Source of the DNA: Bacteroidota bacterium
GTDB lineage: Bacteria; Bacteroidota; Bacteroidia; Bacteroidales; UBA1556
Reading direction: 5' to 3'
Length of the DNA stretch: 14,012 nt
NCBI GenBank assembly: GCA_003973505.1
Contig: QNXT01000224.1
Location: 1 to 14,012, forward strand
In this document: piece by piece, positions 1,263 through 6,162 of the stretch
Position numbering within the stretch: the first letter of the stretch is position 1
Layout of the letters: the number at the start of each line of letters is the position of its first letter
The notes under the pieces: model-generated
What the model was told of the DNA's origin: nothing
What the model saw: the letters and a program-made list of their open reading frames with translations, nothing else
Databases searched by the model: none
Position numbers and translations under genes: made by a program

Positions 1263-1292
1263 TTGTGTTGGGTAGCTAATTATTTAACTTTG
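1263..1292 (+). promoter_or_regulatory. Promoter of the Moco operon
   Basis: TAACTTTG at 1285-1292 matches the Bacteroidota -7 consensus TAnnTTTG. A TTG at 1263-1265 stands 19 bases upstream, a normal spacing for the -33 element. Transcription would start near 1297-1300, exactly at the 5' edge of the riboswitch aptamer. One tension: bases 1289-1295 could also pair with 1419-1426 as an outer closing helix, and that pairing would only exist in RNA if transcription began further upstream. Confidence 0.65.
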
Positions 1293-1295
1293 CAT

Positions 1296-1413
1296 TGTCC
1301 GAGTCGAAGCCATCTAAGGCAATAGCTATGATGCTTCGACCGATGGGTTTAAATAGAAATGTTTAAGCCTCCCGATTCCGTCAATTGATGGATGAATTGG
1401 AAAGGAGCACATC
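1296..1413 (+). ncRNA. Molybdenum cofactor (Moco-family) riboswitch aptamer
   Basis: Three features identify it. First, an 8-bp perfect stem, GTCGAAGC (1303-1310) with GCTTCGAC (1333-1340). Second, an 11-bp hairpin pairing 1345-1355 with 1360-1370 and closed by the GNRA tetraloop GAAA, with three G-U pairs. Third, the core GCCTCCCG (1367-1374) followed after a short arm by GGAAAGGAGCACAT (1399-1412), closely resembling the GCCTCCCG...GGAAAGGTGTACAT core of the E. coli moaA leader as I remember it. TGTCC (1296-1300) with GG(A)GCA (1404-1409) could close the base. Moco RNAs bind the reduced molybdenum (or tungsten) cofactor and control its synthesis genes; here the RNA directly precedes moeA, moaA, moaC and a MogA fusion. 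Whether the ligand is Moco or the tungsten form cannot be settled by eye. Confidence 0.85.
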
Positions 1414-1448
1414 ATATTTGCAAAAGTTTTCTGTATTTAAAATATAGG

Positions 1449-1505
1449 AAAGCCTCTTTTCGTATTTATCCAATTTCTAGTGGAAATCGTAAAGAGGCTT
1501 TTTTT
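1449..1505 (+). terminator. Riboswitch expression platform: intrinsic terminator in the Moco leader
   Basis: Bases 1449-1462 pair with 1488-1501 in a 13-bp stem with a single T-T mismatch. A 25-base loop contains a small inner TCCA/TGGA helix. The run of T at 1499-1505 ends 12 bases before the ATG at 1518, so termination here would silence the whole operon. The 5' arm (1452-1461, GCCTCTTTTC) can instead pair with GGAAAGGAGC at 1399-1408 in the aptamer core (9 of 10 positions, two of them G-U), giving an antiterminator. Ligand-stabilised aptamer would free the 5' arm and favour termination, an OFF switch. The mechanism is inferred from the pairing. Confidence 0.85.
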
Positions 1506-1517
1506 ATTAATTGAAAT

Positions 1518-2246
1518 ATGGATTATCTATTCTTACTGATATTATTTGTTATTGCTGCACTCTATGCATCGGTGGGGCATGGTGGGGCAAGTGGCTATCT
1601 GGCTTTGATGGCGCTTTTTGGCTTCGAACAATATGTGATGAAGTCTTCGGCACTTACGCTTAACCTTTTTGTGTCGGGTATTTCATTTTATTCTTTCTAT
1701 CGAAAAGGACATTTCAAATGGAAAGTGTTATTACCATTTATTATAGGTTCCATCCCAATGGCTTTTATTGGGGCCCGATTAAGTACCGAAGCTCATACTT
1801 ATAAAATTATTCTAGGTGTTTTTCTTTTGATAGCGGTGTCCCGAATGTTTTATAGTCCAAAAGGAGGTTTTTCCGAATCCAAAACTCCTGTTTTTTATTT
1901 GGCTGTAATAATTGGGGCTGTAGTGGGTTTCTTTTCAGGAATGATTGGTATTGGTGGAGGAATAATATTGAGTCCTTTGCTATTGCTTTTGCATTGGTCC
2001 AATGTAAAGGAAACTGCCGGAATATCAGCACTTTTTATCTTTTTAAACTCTTTGGCAGGCTTAGCGGGTTTATATTTTAATACGCATTTCGAGCCGTCAC
2101 CGAATATACTATTGTGGGCAGCAGTTGGGCTGGCCGGAGGTTTTGTGGGTGGCTATATCAGCAATAATAAAATTTCAAACTATCAGTTGCGCTATGTTTT
2201 AGCCTCAGTACTTTTTATAGCAAGTCTTAAACTTTTAATATTTTAA
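1518..2246 (+). CDS. TauE/SafE (TSUP) family membrane transporter, first gene of the Moco operon
   Basis: A 242-residue, very hydrophobic protein with about seven to eight predicted membrane segments. It shows the two internal glycine-rich repeats of TSUP permeases: SVGHGGASGYLAL near residues 18-30 and SGMIGIGGGIILSPLLL near 140-156. This length is normal for the family (COG0730). Known members move sulfite, sulfonates, thiosulfate or other small organic and sulfur-containing anions across the inner membrane. The gene follows the riboswitch terminator by 12 bases and ends one base before moeA, so it is under the same control as the cofactor genes. A role in supplying or removing a sulfur species, or moving an oxyanion such as molybdate, is a guess from context only. 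No substrate can be read from the sequence. Confidence 0.88.
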   Translation: MDYLFLLILFVIAALYASVGHGGASGYLALMALFGFEQYVMKSSALTLNLFVSGISFYSFYRKGHFKWKVLLPFIIGSIPMAFIGARLSTEAHTYKIILGVFLLIAVSRMFYSPKGGFSESKTPVFYLAVIIGAVVGFFSGMIGIGGGIILSPLLLLLHWSNVKETAGISALFIFLNSLAGLAGLYFNTHFEPSPNILLWAAVGLAGGFVGGYISNNKISNYQLRYVLASVLFIASLKLLIF

Positions 2247-2247
2247 T

Positions 2248-3423
2248 ATGATAACATACGAAAAAGCATTGAAACTCGCTCTCGACAGTGGTTTCCCATT
2301 GGGTGAGGAAAAATGTACCTATCTGGAAAGTGTGGGCAGGGTTTTATCAAAAGATATTCTTTCAGATATAGATATGCCTCCTTTCAATCGCTCAGCAATG
2401 GATGGTTATGCCTGTCGTCGCAGTGACCTTGAACAAGAGTTAGAGGTAATTGAAGTCATTCCTGCCGGTGTTTTTCCAAAAAAGAAAATAGGAGCGGGGC
2501 AATGTGCCAAAATTATGACGGGAGCCCCAGTTCCCGAAGGTGCCGATACGGTAATTATGGTGGAGCTTACAAAGCAAATATCAGACTCGCACATTGTATA
2601 TACGGGTAAAAAAACAAAATCAAATATTGCACTCAAAGCGGAGGATGTAAAAGTGGGTGATGTGGTTCTGAAAAAAGGAACCCTTATTCAGCCAAAGCAT
2701 ATTGCTGTTTTGGCCTCGGTAGGAGCGGTTGAAGTGGAGGTCTATAAAAAGCCTCGTATTGCTATTGTTTCTACGGGTGACGAGTTAGTGGAGCCCAATC
2801 AAATTCCTCAAGCTTCGCAAATACGCAATAGCAATGCCTATCAAATGCTTGCTCAGGCAATGGAGCTGGGGATTGAAGCTGAGTATATTGGCGTGGCAAA
2901 AGATACCAAGGAGAGTACCAAAGAAATGCTTTTGAAAGCGATAGAGCGTGCGGATATTATCATTATGTCGGGAGCCGTTTCTATGGGCGATTTTGATTTT
3001 GTTCCCATTGTTTTGCGTGAGCAAGGTGTCGATATTTTGTTTCATGGTATGGAAATAAAACCAGGTAAGAGGGTCATATTTGGAGTGAAGGATAAAAAGT
3101 GGTTTGTGGGAGTGCCCGGAAATCCGGTTTCATCCTTTGTGCAATTTGAAATGCTTGTGAAACCTTTGGTTTATAAAATTATGGGGGCTAATTATGAAAC
3201 CCTGCTTTTCCGTTTGCCTTTGGCACATGATTATAAACGAAAACGCAAAGGACGAAAGGCGTTTGAGCCAATTGTAATTACCGAACAGGGACGAGTTGAA
3301 AAAGCAGATTATAATGGATCGGCTCATATCCATGCTTTAGCCTATGCACAAGGGTTAATGATTATTGAGGCTGATATTGTTGAATTGAAAGAAGGAGACT
3401 TAGTGGATGTTAGACCAATATAA
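2248..3423 (+). CDS. moeA: Molybdopterin molybdenumtransferase MoeA
   Basis: MoeA inserts molybdate into adenylylated molybdopterin, releasing AMP and giving active Moco in the cytoplasm. The 391-residue length is typical. The N-terminal motif DMPPFNRSAMDGYA is at residues 42-55 and KIMTGAPVPEGADTVIMVE at 88-106. The MoCF/MogA-like domain starts around 168 with RIAIVSTGDEL, then SGAVSMGDFDF (241-251; many homologues have SGGVSMGD) and GVPGNPVSS (288-296). The PGKP motif of E. coli MoeA reads PGKR here (272-275). It starts one base after the transporter stop, and its last 17 bases overlap the start of moaA, so translational coupling is likely. Its substrate, adenylyl-molybdopterin, would be made by the MogA part of the fusion protein encoded at the end of the same operon. 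Confidence 0.95.
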   Translation: MITYEKALKLALDSGFPLGEEKCTYLESVGRVLSKDILSDIDMPPFNRSAMDGYACRRSDLEQELEVIEVIPAGVFPKKKIGAGQCAKIMTGAPVPEGADTVIMVELTKQISDSHIVYTGKKTKSNIALKAEDVKVGDVVLKKGTLIQPKHIAVLASVGAVEVEVYKKPRIAIVSTGDELVEPNQIPQASQIRNSNAYQMLAQAMELGIEAEYIGVAKDTKESTKEMLLKAIERADIIIMSGAVSMGDFDFVPIVLREQGVDILFHGMEIKPGKRVIFGVKDKKWFVGVPGNPVSSFVQFEMLVKPLVYKIMGANYETLLFRLPLAHDYKRKRKGRKAFEPIVITEQGRVEKADYNGSAHIHALAYAQGLMIIEADIVELKEGDLVDVRPI

Positions 3424-4207
3424 TAGAGAGATAAACTATATGCGCATTTCGGTTACCGACCGATGTAATTTGCGTTGTACCTATTGCATGCCTGCCAAAG
3501 GCATTCAGTTGATGCCCCATGACGATATTATTTCTTTTGAAAAAATAGTTGAGGTTGTTCATGAGGGGGTGGCACAAGGAATTAATAAAGTTCGACTTAC
3601 AGGGGGCGAACCTCTTGTGCGAAAAGGTATTGTGGATTTAGTATCACAACTATCGCGTATCGAGGGGGTAACGGATTTGGCGATGACCACTAATGGAATC
3701 CTATTGGAAAAATATGCTGAGGATTTGGCAAAAGCGGGTTTGAATCGTGTGAACATTAGTCTGGATACTACATCGGCTGAAAAATATGCGGAGATTACGC
3801 GTGGAGGCGATATTAATCAAGTGTATGCGGGTATTCGAGCTGCCAAAAAAGCGGGACTAACTCCCATAAAAATTAACTGTGTAGTCTTTAAGAACCGGGA
3901 TGAGGAAGATGCTAAATCGGTGGCAAAGTTTTGCAATGACCATGGTTTACAGATTCGGTATATTCATCAAATGGACTTGAAAACAGGGGAGTTTTCCATT
4001 GTTGAAGGGGGTGAAGGTGGTGATTGTAAGTCGTGCAACCGACTGCGCCTTACGGCAAATGGAGAAATTCGCCCTTGTTTGTTTAACGATATGTCGTTTC
4101 AAATAAAAGAACAAGGAGTTGAACAGGCTTATGCTAATGCCTTAAAGAAAAAACCATTGAATGGAACCAAGAGTTTATCGGGAAATTTCTATGGAATTGG
4201 TGGATAG
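3407..4207 (+). CDS. moaA: GTP 3',8-cyclase MoaA, short form
   Basis: MoaA is a radical-SAM enzyme that, with MoaC, converts GTP to cyclic pyranopterin monophosphate, the first step of Moco synthesis. The SAM-binding cluster motif CNLRCTYC places cysteines at 20, 24 and 27, and LTGGEP follows. The second cluster cysteines are 207, 210 and 224 in CKSCNRLRLTANGEIRPC (C-x2-C-x13-C). The protein ends in Gly-Gly, the C-terminal tail needed in MoaA to place 3',8-cH2GTP chemistry. At 266 residues it is clearly shorter than the usual 320-340. Most of the loss is between the RYIHQMDL strand (about 188-195) and the second cluster, where E. coli MoaA has an extra stretch of tens of residues. The reading frame is otherwise intact with every catalytic motif present, so I read it as a natural compact variant. 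It starts inside the end of moeA. Confidence 0.92.
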   Translation: MLDQYNREINYMRISVTDRCNLRCTYCMPAKGIQLMPHDDIISFEKIVEVVHEGVAQGINKVRLTGGEPLVRKGIVDLVSQLSRIEGVTDLAMTTNGILLEKYAEDLAKAGLNRVNISLDTTSAEKYAEITRGGDINQVYAGIRAAKKAGLTPIKINCVVFKNRDEEDAKSVAKFCNDHGLQIRYIHQMDLKTGEFSIVEGGEGGDCKSCNRLRLTANGEIRPCLFNDMSFQIKEQGVEQAYANALKKKPLNGTKSLSGNFYGIGG

Positions 4208-4261: not shown

Positions 4262-4711
4262 ATGAAATTAACACATTTAGACAATCATGGCAAAGCCAAT
4301 ATGGTGGATGTAGGAAATAAACCTGAGCAAGTACGCATAGCTATTGCCGAGGGTTTTATTAATTTGAATGATGAAACGGTAAATCTAATTCGTGAGAATG
4401 GAATGAAAAAAGGCGATGTGCTTACTGTTTCTGAAATTGCAGGCATACAAGCTGCCAAACGTACAAGTGATTTGATTCCCCTTTGTCATCCTTTGCGAAT
4501 AGTGAAAATTGCCGTAAAAGCCAGCTTGCATGCAAAAGGAGTACACATTCGTGCTGAAGTTAAAAGTATCGGACAAACGGGAGTGGAAATGGAGGCTTTG
4601 ACTGCGGTAAATGTGGCTTTGCTAAATATATACGATATGTGTAAAGCTGTGGATAAGAATATGATGATGGAAAATATTCGACTAATTGAAAAAACAAAAA
4701 CAGATATATAA
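4262..4711 (+). CDS. moaC: Cyclic pyranopterin monophosphate synthase MoaC
   Basis: MoaC takes the 3',8-cyclo-GTP product of MoaA and rearranges it to cyclic pyranopterin monophosphate. The 149-residue length is close to the family norm of about 160. Typical motifs are the N-terminal HLDNHGKANMVDV (residues 5-17), SDLIPLCHPL (69-78) and GVEMEALTAVNVALLNIYDMCKAVDK (107-132), which carry the conserved Lys, His and Asp residues of the active site. It lies 54 bases after moaA with no terminator in between, and 10 bases before the MOSC-MogA gene, so it belongs to the same transcript. The moaD and moaE genes that would act next, adding the dithiolene sulfurs, are not present in this window. Confidence 0.96.
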   Translation: MKLTHLDNHGKANMVDVGNKPEQVRIAIAEGFINLNDETVNLIRENGMKKGDVLTVSEIAGIQAAKRTSDLIPLCHPLRIVKIAVKASLHAKGVHIRAEVKSIGQTGVEMEALTAVNVALLNIYDMCKAVDKNMMMENIRLIEKTKTDI

Positions 4712-4721
4712 AACTTATATT

Positions 4722-5657
4722 ATGAAGACATTTGAAGTTACATCCGTAAATATTTCAGAGAAAAAGGGAACCATCAAAGTGCCGGTTGAGGATATTGAAC
4801 TAACCGATATTGGTATTCCGAATGATGCACATTCCGGACCATGGCATAGGCAGGTGAGTATGTTGGGAGCTGAGAGTATCCGAAAATTTTCTAAGGATGC
4901 AAGTCGTGAAATAGTGGCAGGAGAGTTTGCCGAAAATATTACCACCGAAGGAATGGAGTTGTATAAAACGGCTCCTTTGGATCGCTTTATTTCGGGTGAT
5001 TTAGAATTGATGGTTACACAGATTGGTAAAAAATGTCATGGCGATGGTTGCGCTATTTTTGAGGAAATAGGCAATTGTGTAATGCCTAAAGAAGGAATTT
5101 TTGTTCAGGTGATTAAAGGAGGAAAGCTAAAGGCTAACACCACTTTTGAATATCACCCCCGCGTATTAAAAATTTTGATTGTTACGCTTAGCGACCGTGC
5201 AAGTAAGGGTGTTTATGAAGATAAGAGTGGACCTTTTGTTCGTAAAATGACGGAAGAATACTTATTGAAAAAACATCGTCATTTTGACTTTGAAACCCAT
5301 GTGATTCCCGATGATGCAAGAATGTTGGAAGAGGTTGTAGGTAATGCTGTTCAGCGAGAATTCGATATCATCTTTACTACTGGGGGTACAGGCATCGGAA
5401 AACGTGATATTACTGTGGATGTTATTCAACCGATGTTAGATAAAGAGATTACGGGTATCATGGAGTTGATTAGGGTGAAATATGGAATGAAAAAGCCCAA
5501 TGCTTTAATTAGTAGAGCTGTGGCAGGTACTATTCAAGATACTTTGGTTTATACCTTGCCTGGGAGTGTGAAAGCTGTTAAAGAGTATTTAGACGAGATT
5601 TTACCTACTGTTGAGCATTCTATCTATATGATGAATGGCTTGGATTTACATGGATAA
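4722..5657 (+). CDS. MOSC domain fused to molybdopterin adenylyltransferase (MogA/MoaB-like)
   Basis: A two-domain protein of 311 residues. Residues 1 to about 147 form a MOSC domain with GKKCHGDGCAIFEEIGNC (cysteines 105, 110, 119) and MPKEGIFVQV; MOSC domains occur in Moco sulfurases and are thought to handle sulfur or bind the cofactor. Residues 149-311 form a MogA/MoaB domain with ILIVTLSDRASKGVYEDKSG, the TTGGTG loop (219-224) followed by KRDIT, and LPGSVKAV (279-286), which adenylylates molybdopterin ready for MoeA. I chose the ATG at 4722 because it leaves a 10-base gap after moaC; an in-frame ATG at 4686 would overlap moaC and add twelve lysine-rich residues unrelated to MOSC proteins. 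The fusion is the last gene of the operon and supplies the adenylylation step missing from the other genes here. I know similar fusions in Bacteroidota, but assign no symbol. Confidence 0.92.
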   Translation: MKTFEVTSVNISEKKGTIKVPVEDIELTDIGIPNDAHSGPWHRQVSMLGAESIRKFSKDASREIVAGEFAENITTEGMELYKTAPLDRFISGDLELMVTQIGKKCHGDGCAIFEEIGNCVMPKEGIFVQVIKGGKLKANTTFEYHPRVLKILIVTLSDRASKGVYEDKSGPFVRKMTEEYLLKKHRHFDFETHVIPDDARMLEEVVGNAVQREFDIIFTTGGTGIGKRDITVDVIQPMLDKEITGIMELIRVKYGMKKPNALISRAVAGTIQDTLVYTLPGSVKAVKEYLDEILPTVEHSIYMMNGLDLHG

Positions 5658-5699
5658 AAAAATGCCCAATTTGTTATTCTGCAAATTGGGCATTTTTTT
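5656..5699. terminator. Bidirectional terminator between the Moco operon and the HAD gene
   Basis: Bases 5656-5673 pair perfectly with 5682-5699 (18 bp) around the 8-base loop TTATTCTG. A-runs on the left arm and T-runs on the right give a U-tract for transcripts in either direction. The stop codons of both converging genes (TAA at 5655-5657 on +, TAA at 5700-5698 on -) overlap the ends of the hairpin, so the whole intergenic space is terminator. Confidence 0.93.
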
Positions 5700-6162
5700 A
5701 TTTTCTCAATGTCCCTTCCATCGACTTTTTGTCCATAAACAAGCGTAAAGCATCGTCAATACTTGGAGTAAGAATATCTACATACTTCAAAACCCCAGTA
5801 TGAATTCCCTCAGCCTGAATGGTGGCGATGGATAAAGCAGCATTTTCGAAAGTGCCAATATCGATACGGGCATTTCCAATGGCAGCCGTTTTTGTTTTAT
5901 CAAACTGTTGCATCTGTGTAGCCTTCTCATCACTGGTTTTACCAAGATAAAGTTCTAAGCCTAATTCATCTGCAATTTGTTTTGCACTACCTCGTATATC
6001 GCCTGATATCAGAACCAAGCGATAATTCAATTCCTTGAGCTGACGAATTAATACCTTAGTAGACTCGTCAATTTTACCTCTTACACTCAAAGTGCCATTT
6101 AAGTCGAGCACGATGGTGTTTATTTCTAGAATTTCCCCATGGGGTGGAATATGGAATATCAT
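5698..6162 (-). CDS. Small HAD-superfamily protein resembling soluble P-type ATPase catalytic cores
   Basis: A 154-residue single-domain HAD protein. Motif I is VLDLNGTLS with the nucleophile Asp at residue 20; the usual second Asp is Asn22. Motif II is LISGD (Ser53), motif III has Lys80 in TSDEKATQ, and motif IV is IGNARID (Gly96-Asp101). The DxNGT start and GN-x-x-x-D ending resemble COG4087 'soluble P-type ATPase' proteins, which look like the phosphorylation domain of a P-type ATPase without membrane parts. In phosphatase HADs the second Asp is the acid/base, and its replacement is typical of ATPase-like members that only form or break the aspartyl phosphate slowly. The substrate is unknown. 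The protein starts at MIFHIPPHGE, giving the beta strand before motif I. It is monocistronic, converges on the Moco operon and is preceded by the repeat array at 6205-6320. Confidence 0.82.
   Translation of the reverse strand: MIFHIPPHGEILEINTIVLDLNGTLSVRGKIDESTKVLIRQLKELNYRLVLISGDIRGSAKQIADELGLELYLGKTSDEKATQMQQFDKTKTAAIGNARIDIGTFENAALSIATIQAEGIHTGVLKYVDILTPSIDDALRLFMDKKSMEGTLRK

Follow-up and report, generated by a model that had tools for sequence, protein, structure and literature searches.

A P3-lacking Moco/Tuco-type RNA as a probable transcription attenuator upstream of a TSUP-moeA-moaA-moaC operon in a Bacteroidota bacterium

The stretch of DNA analysed here (14,012 nt of a Bacteroidota contig, hereafter referred to as the window) carries a probable riboswitch followed on the forward strand by a five-gene operon. 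The first gene (1518..2246) encodes a TSUP-family membrane transporter (TauE/SafE, PF01925; E 1.3e-36) and is followed by moeA (2248..3423; PF03453, PF00994, PF03454), moaA (3407..4207; PF04055, PF06463), moaC (4262..4711; PF01967, 3.1e-54) and a gene encoding a MOSC-MoaB fusion (4722..5657; PF03473, PF00994), for which the ATG at 4722 was preferred over a TTG at 4686. This arrangement bears out the initial annotation of this DNA, which had claimed control of a whole cofactor operon. The moaA product is short (266 aa; TIGR02666, 285.8 bits against a cut-off of 284.05); its match to the MoaA model is split into two stretches, and it retains the C-terminal cysteines and the C-terminal GG, so its middle segment seems to be reduced. 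A terminator-like hairpin (5655..5700), with 20 pairs and a T tract behind them, lies at the operon end, and two adjoining genes for proteins with haem-binding domains (PF14376) occupy positions 206-1112, just 5' of the riboswitch operon.

Rfam cmscan placed a covariance match to RF01055 at 1286-1423 of the forward strand (62.7 bits, gathering threshold 36, E 2.3e-13), the sole Rfam family above threshold in the window, and thereby confirmed the Moco-type aptamer that had been proposed from reading the sequence. The aptamer (1296..1410), delimited from cmscan, folding and sequence reading, adjoins Moco/MPT genes (moeA, moaA, moaC and MOSC-MoaB). Its minimum-energy fold contains helices P2 (1303-1310/1333-1340) and P4 (1345-1355/1360-1370), the latter capped by a GAAA loop (1356-1359) that was read from the sequence, as was the tetraloop receptor (CUAAG at 1314-1318 and UAUG at 1327-1330); the conserved GGAAAGGAG is also present. 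The linker between P2 and P4 is short (ACCGAUGGG) and holds no P3 stem, and by-eye reading of 28 clade aptamers did not reveal a P3 in them either. For P1, the Rfam alignment pairs UCC with GGA; energy folding of the window does not form this helix.

A match to the Bacteroidota -7 promoter box, TAACTTTG (1285..1292), lies 13 nt before UCCGAG and fits TAnnTTTG, the -7 consensus of Bacteroides (PMC7366714). Because the 5' end of the Rfam match overlaps this box, the transcript probably starts near 1296, where the 5' strand of P1 lies, and hence at the aptamer itself, and the opening bases of the Rfam match are probably in large part promoter. Of 31 leaders (the window, its clade relatives and two further loci, described below), 16 have the same TAnnTTTG motif starting 15-30 nt 5' of UCCGAG or its equivalent, compared with 153 of 12400 random positions; the window, with its box 13 nt upstream, is not counted among these 16.

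Downstream of the aptamer lies an intrinsic terminator (1448..1505), with an outer stem joining 1448-1459 to 1491-1502 and a tract of seven T (T1499-T1505) that ends 12 nt 5' of the operon. The hairpin folds at -19.2 kcal/mol (1449-1506; z -5.55), and none of 200 shuffles was as good. The initial annotation had proposed that the aptamer core GGAAAGGAGC (1399-1408) can pair with the terminator 5' arm GCCTCTTTTC (1452-1461). These letters and coordinates are exact, the pairing does extend over 9 of 10 positions (two G-U pairs, with a mismatch at A1406/C1454) and the additional U1398-G1462 wobble is possible, but the best register is one base off. In the minimum-energy antiterminator, eight unbroken pairs, one of them G-U, run from G1400-C1461 to G1407-C1454, and a second part adds nine pairs between 1389-1397 and 1464-1472, giving 17 pairs together. 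The switching strand (1389..1408) is, according to the fold helices, both the 3' strand of P5 and P1 and the 5' strand of the antiterminator. The antiterminator 3' strand (1454..1472), defined by folds and arm controls, overlaps the terminator 5' arm, and single-sequence folding predicts a spacer hairpin (1427..1451) in the interval between aptamer and terminator of the antiterminated fold. The antiterminator uses the P5/P1 3' strand of the aptamer, in agreement with the earlier claim that it is mutually exclusive with the aptamer and the terminator.

The antiterminated fold has a computed energy of -55.0 kcal/mol, versus -45.3 kcal/mol when 1448-1480 is kept unpaired. As long as the terminator hairpin has yet to close, 0.86-0.87 of the core strand of the window pairs with the arm and none of it (0.00) with the aptamer. 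Completion of the hairpin shifts the balance to the terminator, whose pairing reaches 0.72-0.74 in the window with ligand absent. The full-length fold of the window favours the terminator even when ligand-free, and the switch must therefore be kinetic, decided during transcription. Folding leaves the full-length leader antiterminated in some relatives (L082, L088, L093-L096, L101 and L102).

A short match between a purine-rich and a pyrimidine-rich strand could arise as a by-product of such sequence next to a terminator that is constitutive or serves another signal. The core-arm pairing was therefore set against 418 control hairpins, which are putative, of unconfirmed terminator status, and include hairpins inside genes. 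The 9-nt duplex of the window (-9.2) was equalled by 4 of the 418 control arms, and none of 200 of these arms, when swapped into the window leader, attained the native antiterminator pairing of 0.86. The by-product explanation draws on the occurrence of TTTCC or TTTTC in 29 of the 418 control arms and on the 44 of 418 that equal the window once a 21-nt core stretch replaces the 9 nt; the swaps speak against it, as do the leaders of related genomes.

These leaders were gathered starting from a MoeA scan that returned 73 loci, the nearest of which, with 61% identity, belongs to the Bacteroidetes MAG SZUA-53 (L001, genome G001). Direct Rfam scans covered 37 of the 73 loci (12 with two matches among them, L035 with one match, and 24 with none), and L013, L015 and L017-L020 were covered via genomes only; RF01055 was found in three of 20 genomes (G001, G006 and G015). 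Among 149 relatives of G001, 28 carry RF01055. With stricter filters, under which weak matches may be missed, one genome out of 395 from the class to which G006 belongs had it, as did 21 out of 395 from the G001 phylum, with 19 of the latter above the cut-off. We define the clade set as the window plus the 28 relatives of G001 (n = 29), excluding L074 (G015) and L075 (G006), which came from a separate scan. At L035 (Carboxylicivirga marina, 3922-4204), the aptamer precedes a TSUP gene and a terminator was not seen; by eye, CTCCTTTTC, a complement of the core, lies 36 nt 5' of the ATG at 4202.

The clade leaders differ in what follows the aptamer. Terminators are present in 16 of the 29 (the window, L076, L082, L084, L085, L087, L088, L089, L091, L093, L094, L095, L096, L099, L101 and L102), the hairpins having been picked by eye from fold listings where several candidates occurred. 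In five others (L079, L080, L092, L100 and L103), GGAG or GGG of the P1 3' strand lies 5-7 nt before the ATG, and the remaining eight (L077, L078, L081, L083, L086, L090, L097 and L098) lack both a terminator and a start-proximal GGAG. The five start-proximal leaders invite the idea that these RNAs mask the start region and so act on translation, the mechanism originally put forward for E. coli moaA. In the case of the window we consider this most improbable, given that its core lies about 110-120 nt before the ATG at 1518 with a strong terminator in between. The same five leaders weaken the argument, made in the initial annotation, that termination makes sense in a lineage devoid of Shine-Dalgarno sites. 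One of them is L100 (1501-3139), in which the gene directly 3' of the Moco-type RNA (49.7 bits) codes for a TonB-dependent receptor and has GGAAAGGG 7 nt 5' of its ATG.

In all 16 clade leaders with terminators, the terminator arm pairs with its own aptamer core within the best 0-16 of the 418 control arms, beating at least 96% of them, and in the ten of these leaders subjected to swaps with 200 control arms each, 0-18 of 200 reached the native pairing. Folding further indicates that the antiterminator leads right after the loop is passed, with pairing of 0.74-1.00 across the 16. The arm reads CCTCGTTTCC in six clade leaders (L087, L093, L094, L096, L101 and L102), although the folded terminator leaves the UUU on which the antiterminator depends in part unpaired or holds it by weak pairs; this speaks against a by-product, and is as would be expected if CCTCGTTTCC were kept by the antiterminator. 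Taken with both sides of the evidence, a by-product origin of the core match appears very unlikely.

In an automatic repeat of the analysis, 24 of 31 leaders (the clade, including the window, with L074 and L075) had a hairpin; 15 of the 24 fell within the best 5% with a 9-nt core and nine with 21 nt. Eight of the nine missing on 9 nt have hairpins in or running into coding sequence (L075, L077, L079, L080, L083, L090, L097 and L098), and in the ninth, L088, the search pattern misplaced the core; with the by-eye hairpin, L088 ranks 1 of 418. Covariation between core and arm had been suggested at the outset as a check. True covariation cannot be shown for the core, because one strand of the helix is the near-invariant aptamer, but the variable flanks do fit their own arms: when flanks and arms were permuted among the 16 clade leaders, native combinations paired better on average, and 109 of 20000 permutations were as good. 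Yet no more than 6 of 16 clade leaders, and 8 of 15 leaders from elsewhere in the phylum, rank their native arm in the top three. For the clade, chance complementarity was ruled out by the 418 control hairpins, the arm swaps in 10 of 16 leaders and the permutations.

Of 19 loci from elsewhere in the phylum, 15 have a terminator-type hairpin, and arm complementarity passes in nine of these 15 with the 21-nt stretch and in two with 9 nt. It is absent with either length in six (L135, L136, L140, L146, L151 and L152); for these, chance complementarity was not rejected. Leaders that keep the aptamer and lose the complementarity, which the initial annotation had named as evidence against the switch, are thus found among 6 of 15 phylum terminators but not among the 16 clade leaders with terminators. 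None of 20000 flank-arm permutations of the 15 phylum leaders was as good as the native set. The helix can be shifted: in L143, L144, L145 and L147 an arm with CCTCATCTCC faces GGAG and the bases 3' of GGAG, and in L134, by eye, arm and loop face GAGAACAAATG. The principle of the switch recurs among these leaders in differing registers. At eight of the 19 loci (L134, L138, L139, L141, L143, L144, L145 and L147), a Moco-type RNA with no visible P3 lies 5' of genes for related membrane proteins. The L138 protein weakly resembles a permease for cobalt-type transport (PF09819, below cut-off); next to it come genes for a protein with slight similarity to CbiQ (TIGR02454, below cut-off) and for a TonB-dependent receptor plug. 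This arrangement could be an uptake route for the cofactor, a precursor or the metal.

Computation shows a match to the aptamer, a terminator, helices that are mutually exclusive and the conservation of the antiterminator helix in 16 of 29 clade leaders, and on this basis we consider it very probable that the P3-lacking Moco/Tuco-type (RF01055) RNA of the window is a ligand-responsive transcription attenuator. RNA polymerase would start near 1296. With ligand absent, the P5/P1 3' strand (1389-1407) would pair with 1454-1472 once the latter is transcribed, the antiterminator so formed would block the terminator, and the TSUP-moeA-moaA-moaC-MOSC/moaB operon would be transcribed. With the cofactor bound, P1 and P5 would hold 1399-1408 and leave the arm 1448-1459 free, upon which the terminator would close and transcription would stop. 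In this scheme we infer that the ligand binds, that the response has this direction and that termination takes place.

The identity of the ligand is a separate question. A proposal of 2008 holds that P3-lacking Moco RNAs sense the tungsten cofactor, and the window RNA, in which few nucleotides join P2 to P4 and P3 is absent, has the corresponding architecture; in extracts of that study, 17 of 19 organisms whose RNAs lack P3 are reported to have tungsten genes (Regulski 2008, PMC2408646). The "Moco" label of the initial annotation accordingly holds for the RF01055 class, but with P3 absent Moco is not to be assumed over the tungsten cofactor. Among the 28 carriers of the RNA in the clade, 11 encode an AOR-family domain and five encode WtpA above the cut-off, all five together with AOR, which speaks for tungsten sensing. 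AOR is nevertheless no commoner in carriers (11/28) than in other relatives (46/121; P = 1.0), and the family is not tungsten-specific, because the E. coli control genome also matches it. Moreover, 17 of the 28 carriers show neither of the two tungsten markers covered, AOR and WtpA, and 13 of these 17 have xanthine-oxidase-family domains. Xanthine-oxidase-family proteins are molybdenum enzymes, and their domains occur in 23 of the 28 carriers. PF00384 is found in 26 of 28 carriers versus 82 of 121 other relatives; these counts are weak evidence for molybdoenzymes because the model also matches a NADH dehydrogenase subunit. PF00174 was found in none of the 28 carriers. Tungsten-cofactor sensing by RNAs of the window type thus seems to us rather unlikely. 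Moco appears the more likely ligand, if weakly supported by these gene contents; the P3 rule does not predict this clade well, though genome gaps and the further tungsten marker TupA leave room for tungsten.

The gene that most often follows the riboswitch encodes the TSUP transporter, which lies directly 3' of the RNA in 24 of the 28 carriers and may therefore be a molybdate or tungstate importer, a hypothesis derived from genomic context. Of the 149 genomes, 26 encode relatives of this protein (E 1e-20 or better), and 24 of these are the riboswitch carriers; in the other two, G430 and G440 (the latter with a partial match), no RF01055 was found genome-wide or, at a loose threshold, at the TSUP locus. 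ModA is present above the cut-off in nine of the 149 genomes. In G415, G421 and G422, moeA directly follows the riboswitch with no TSUP gene, and all three have ModA, which is found in one of the 24 TSUP carriers (G538). Among carriers, the mutual exclusion of ModA and TSUP has P = 0.0014 with kinship ignored. Over all 149 genomes such an exclusion is unsupported (overlap 1, P = 1.0). A limited search of the literature on TauE/TSUP proteins together with molybdate, as far as its records go, yielded no TSUP molybdate carrier. We tentatively suggest, as a possibility somewhat short of probable, that the P3-lacking RNA of this clade senses Moco, P3 not being a discriminator of molybdenum and tungsten, and controls a TSUP protein that substitutes for ModABC as an importer of molybdate (or tungstate).

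A limited search of the Moco riboswitch and Bacteroidetes literature, in the portions accessible, turned up no description of a system of the window type. The type of switch is nonetheless already known; the window RNA is a well-supported example of it, and its ligand and transporter are of more interest than the switch itself. The analysis provides a comparatively supported switch anatomy for Bacteroidota Moco RNAs, with one aptamer and several output platforms in one clade; it opens the 2008 proposal, which links loss of P3 to tungsten sensing, to testing in bacteria that appear to use molybdenum; and it nominates a TSUP transporter, from a family that Pfam calls sulfite exporter, as a candidate carrier of molybdenum or tungsten oxyanions.

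Compared with the Moco RNA described in 2008 (RF01055), the window RNA is alike in its aptamer, its GAAA tetraloop and receptor, the cofactor-synthesis genes downstream and the presence of terminators, as far as extracts of that paper show (PMC2408646). Terminators were noted there after some Moco RNAs, in S. wolfei, for instance, after the first and the second of three P3-lacking copies in tandem (PMC2408646), and a transcription-terminating version, on which the initial annotation had remarked, is not new in view of these terminator-type Moco RNAs (Regulski 2008, PMC2408646). The systems differ in that the list of phyla in the 2008 abstract is without Bacteroidetes (PMC2408646), whereas the RNA here heads a TSUP-moeA operon and its P3-lacking form occurs, among relatives, in genomes without AOR and WtpA. 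With the E. coli moaA riboswitch the window shares the aptamer class and the use of the P1 3' strand as the switching element. That riboswitch had been called mainly translational; ribosome-binding-site control does operate there, but the wording is too strong in view of the Rho-dependent 3' ends of the moaA leader (PMC7815308) and the termination signals seen in RNA-seq (PMC12121620), both taken from excerpts of these reports. E. coli thus combines ribosome-binding-site control with Rho-dependent 3' ends (PMC7815308, in excerpt), whereas the window has an intrinsic terminator and an antiterminator. The TPP riboswitches of Bacteroides differ in aptamer and ligand but offer, to judge from a preprint title cited in PMC7366714, a parallel within Bacteroidota in which one riboswitch class is served by both transcriptional and translational platforms.
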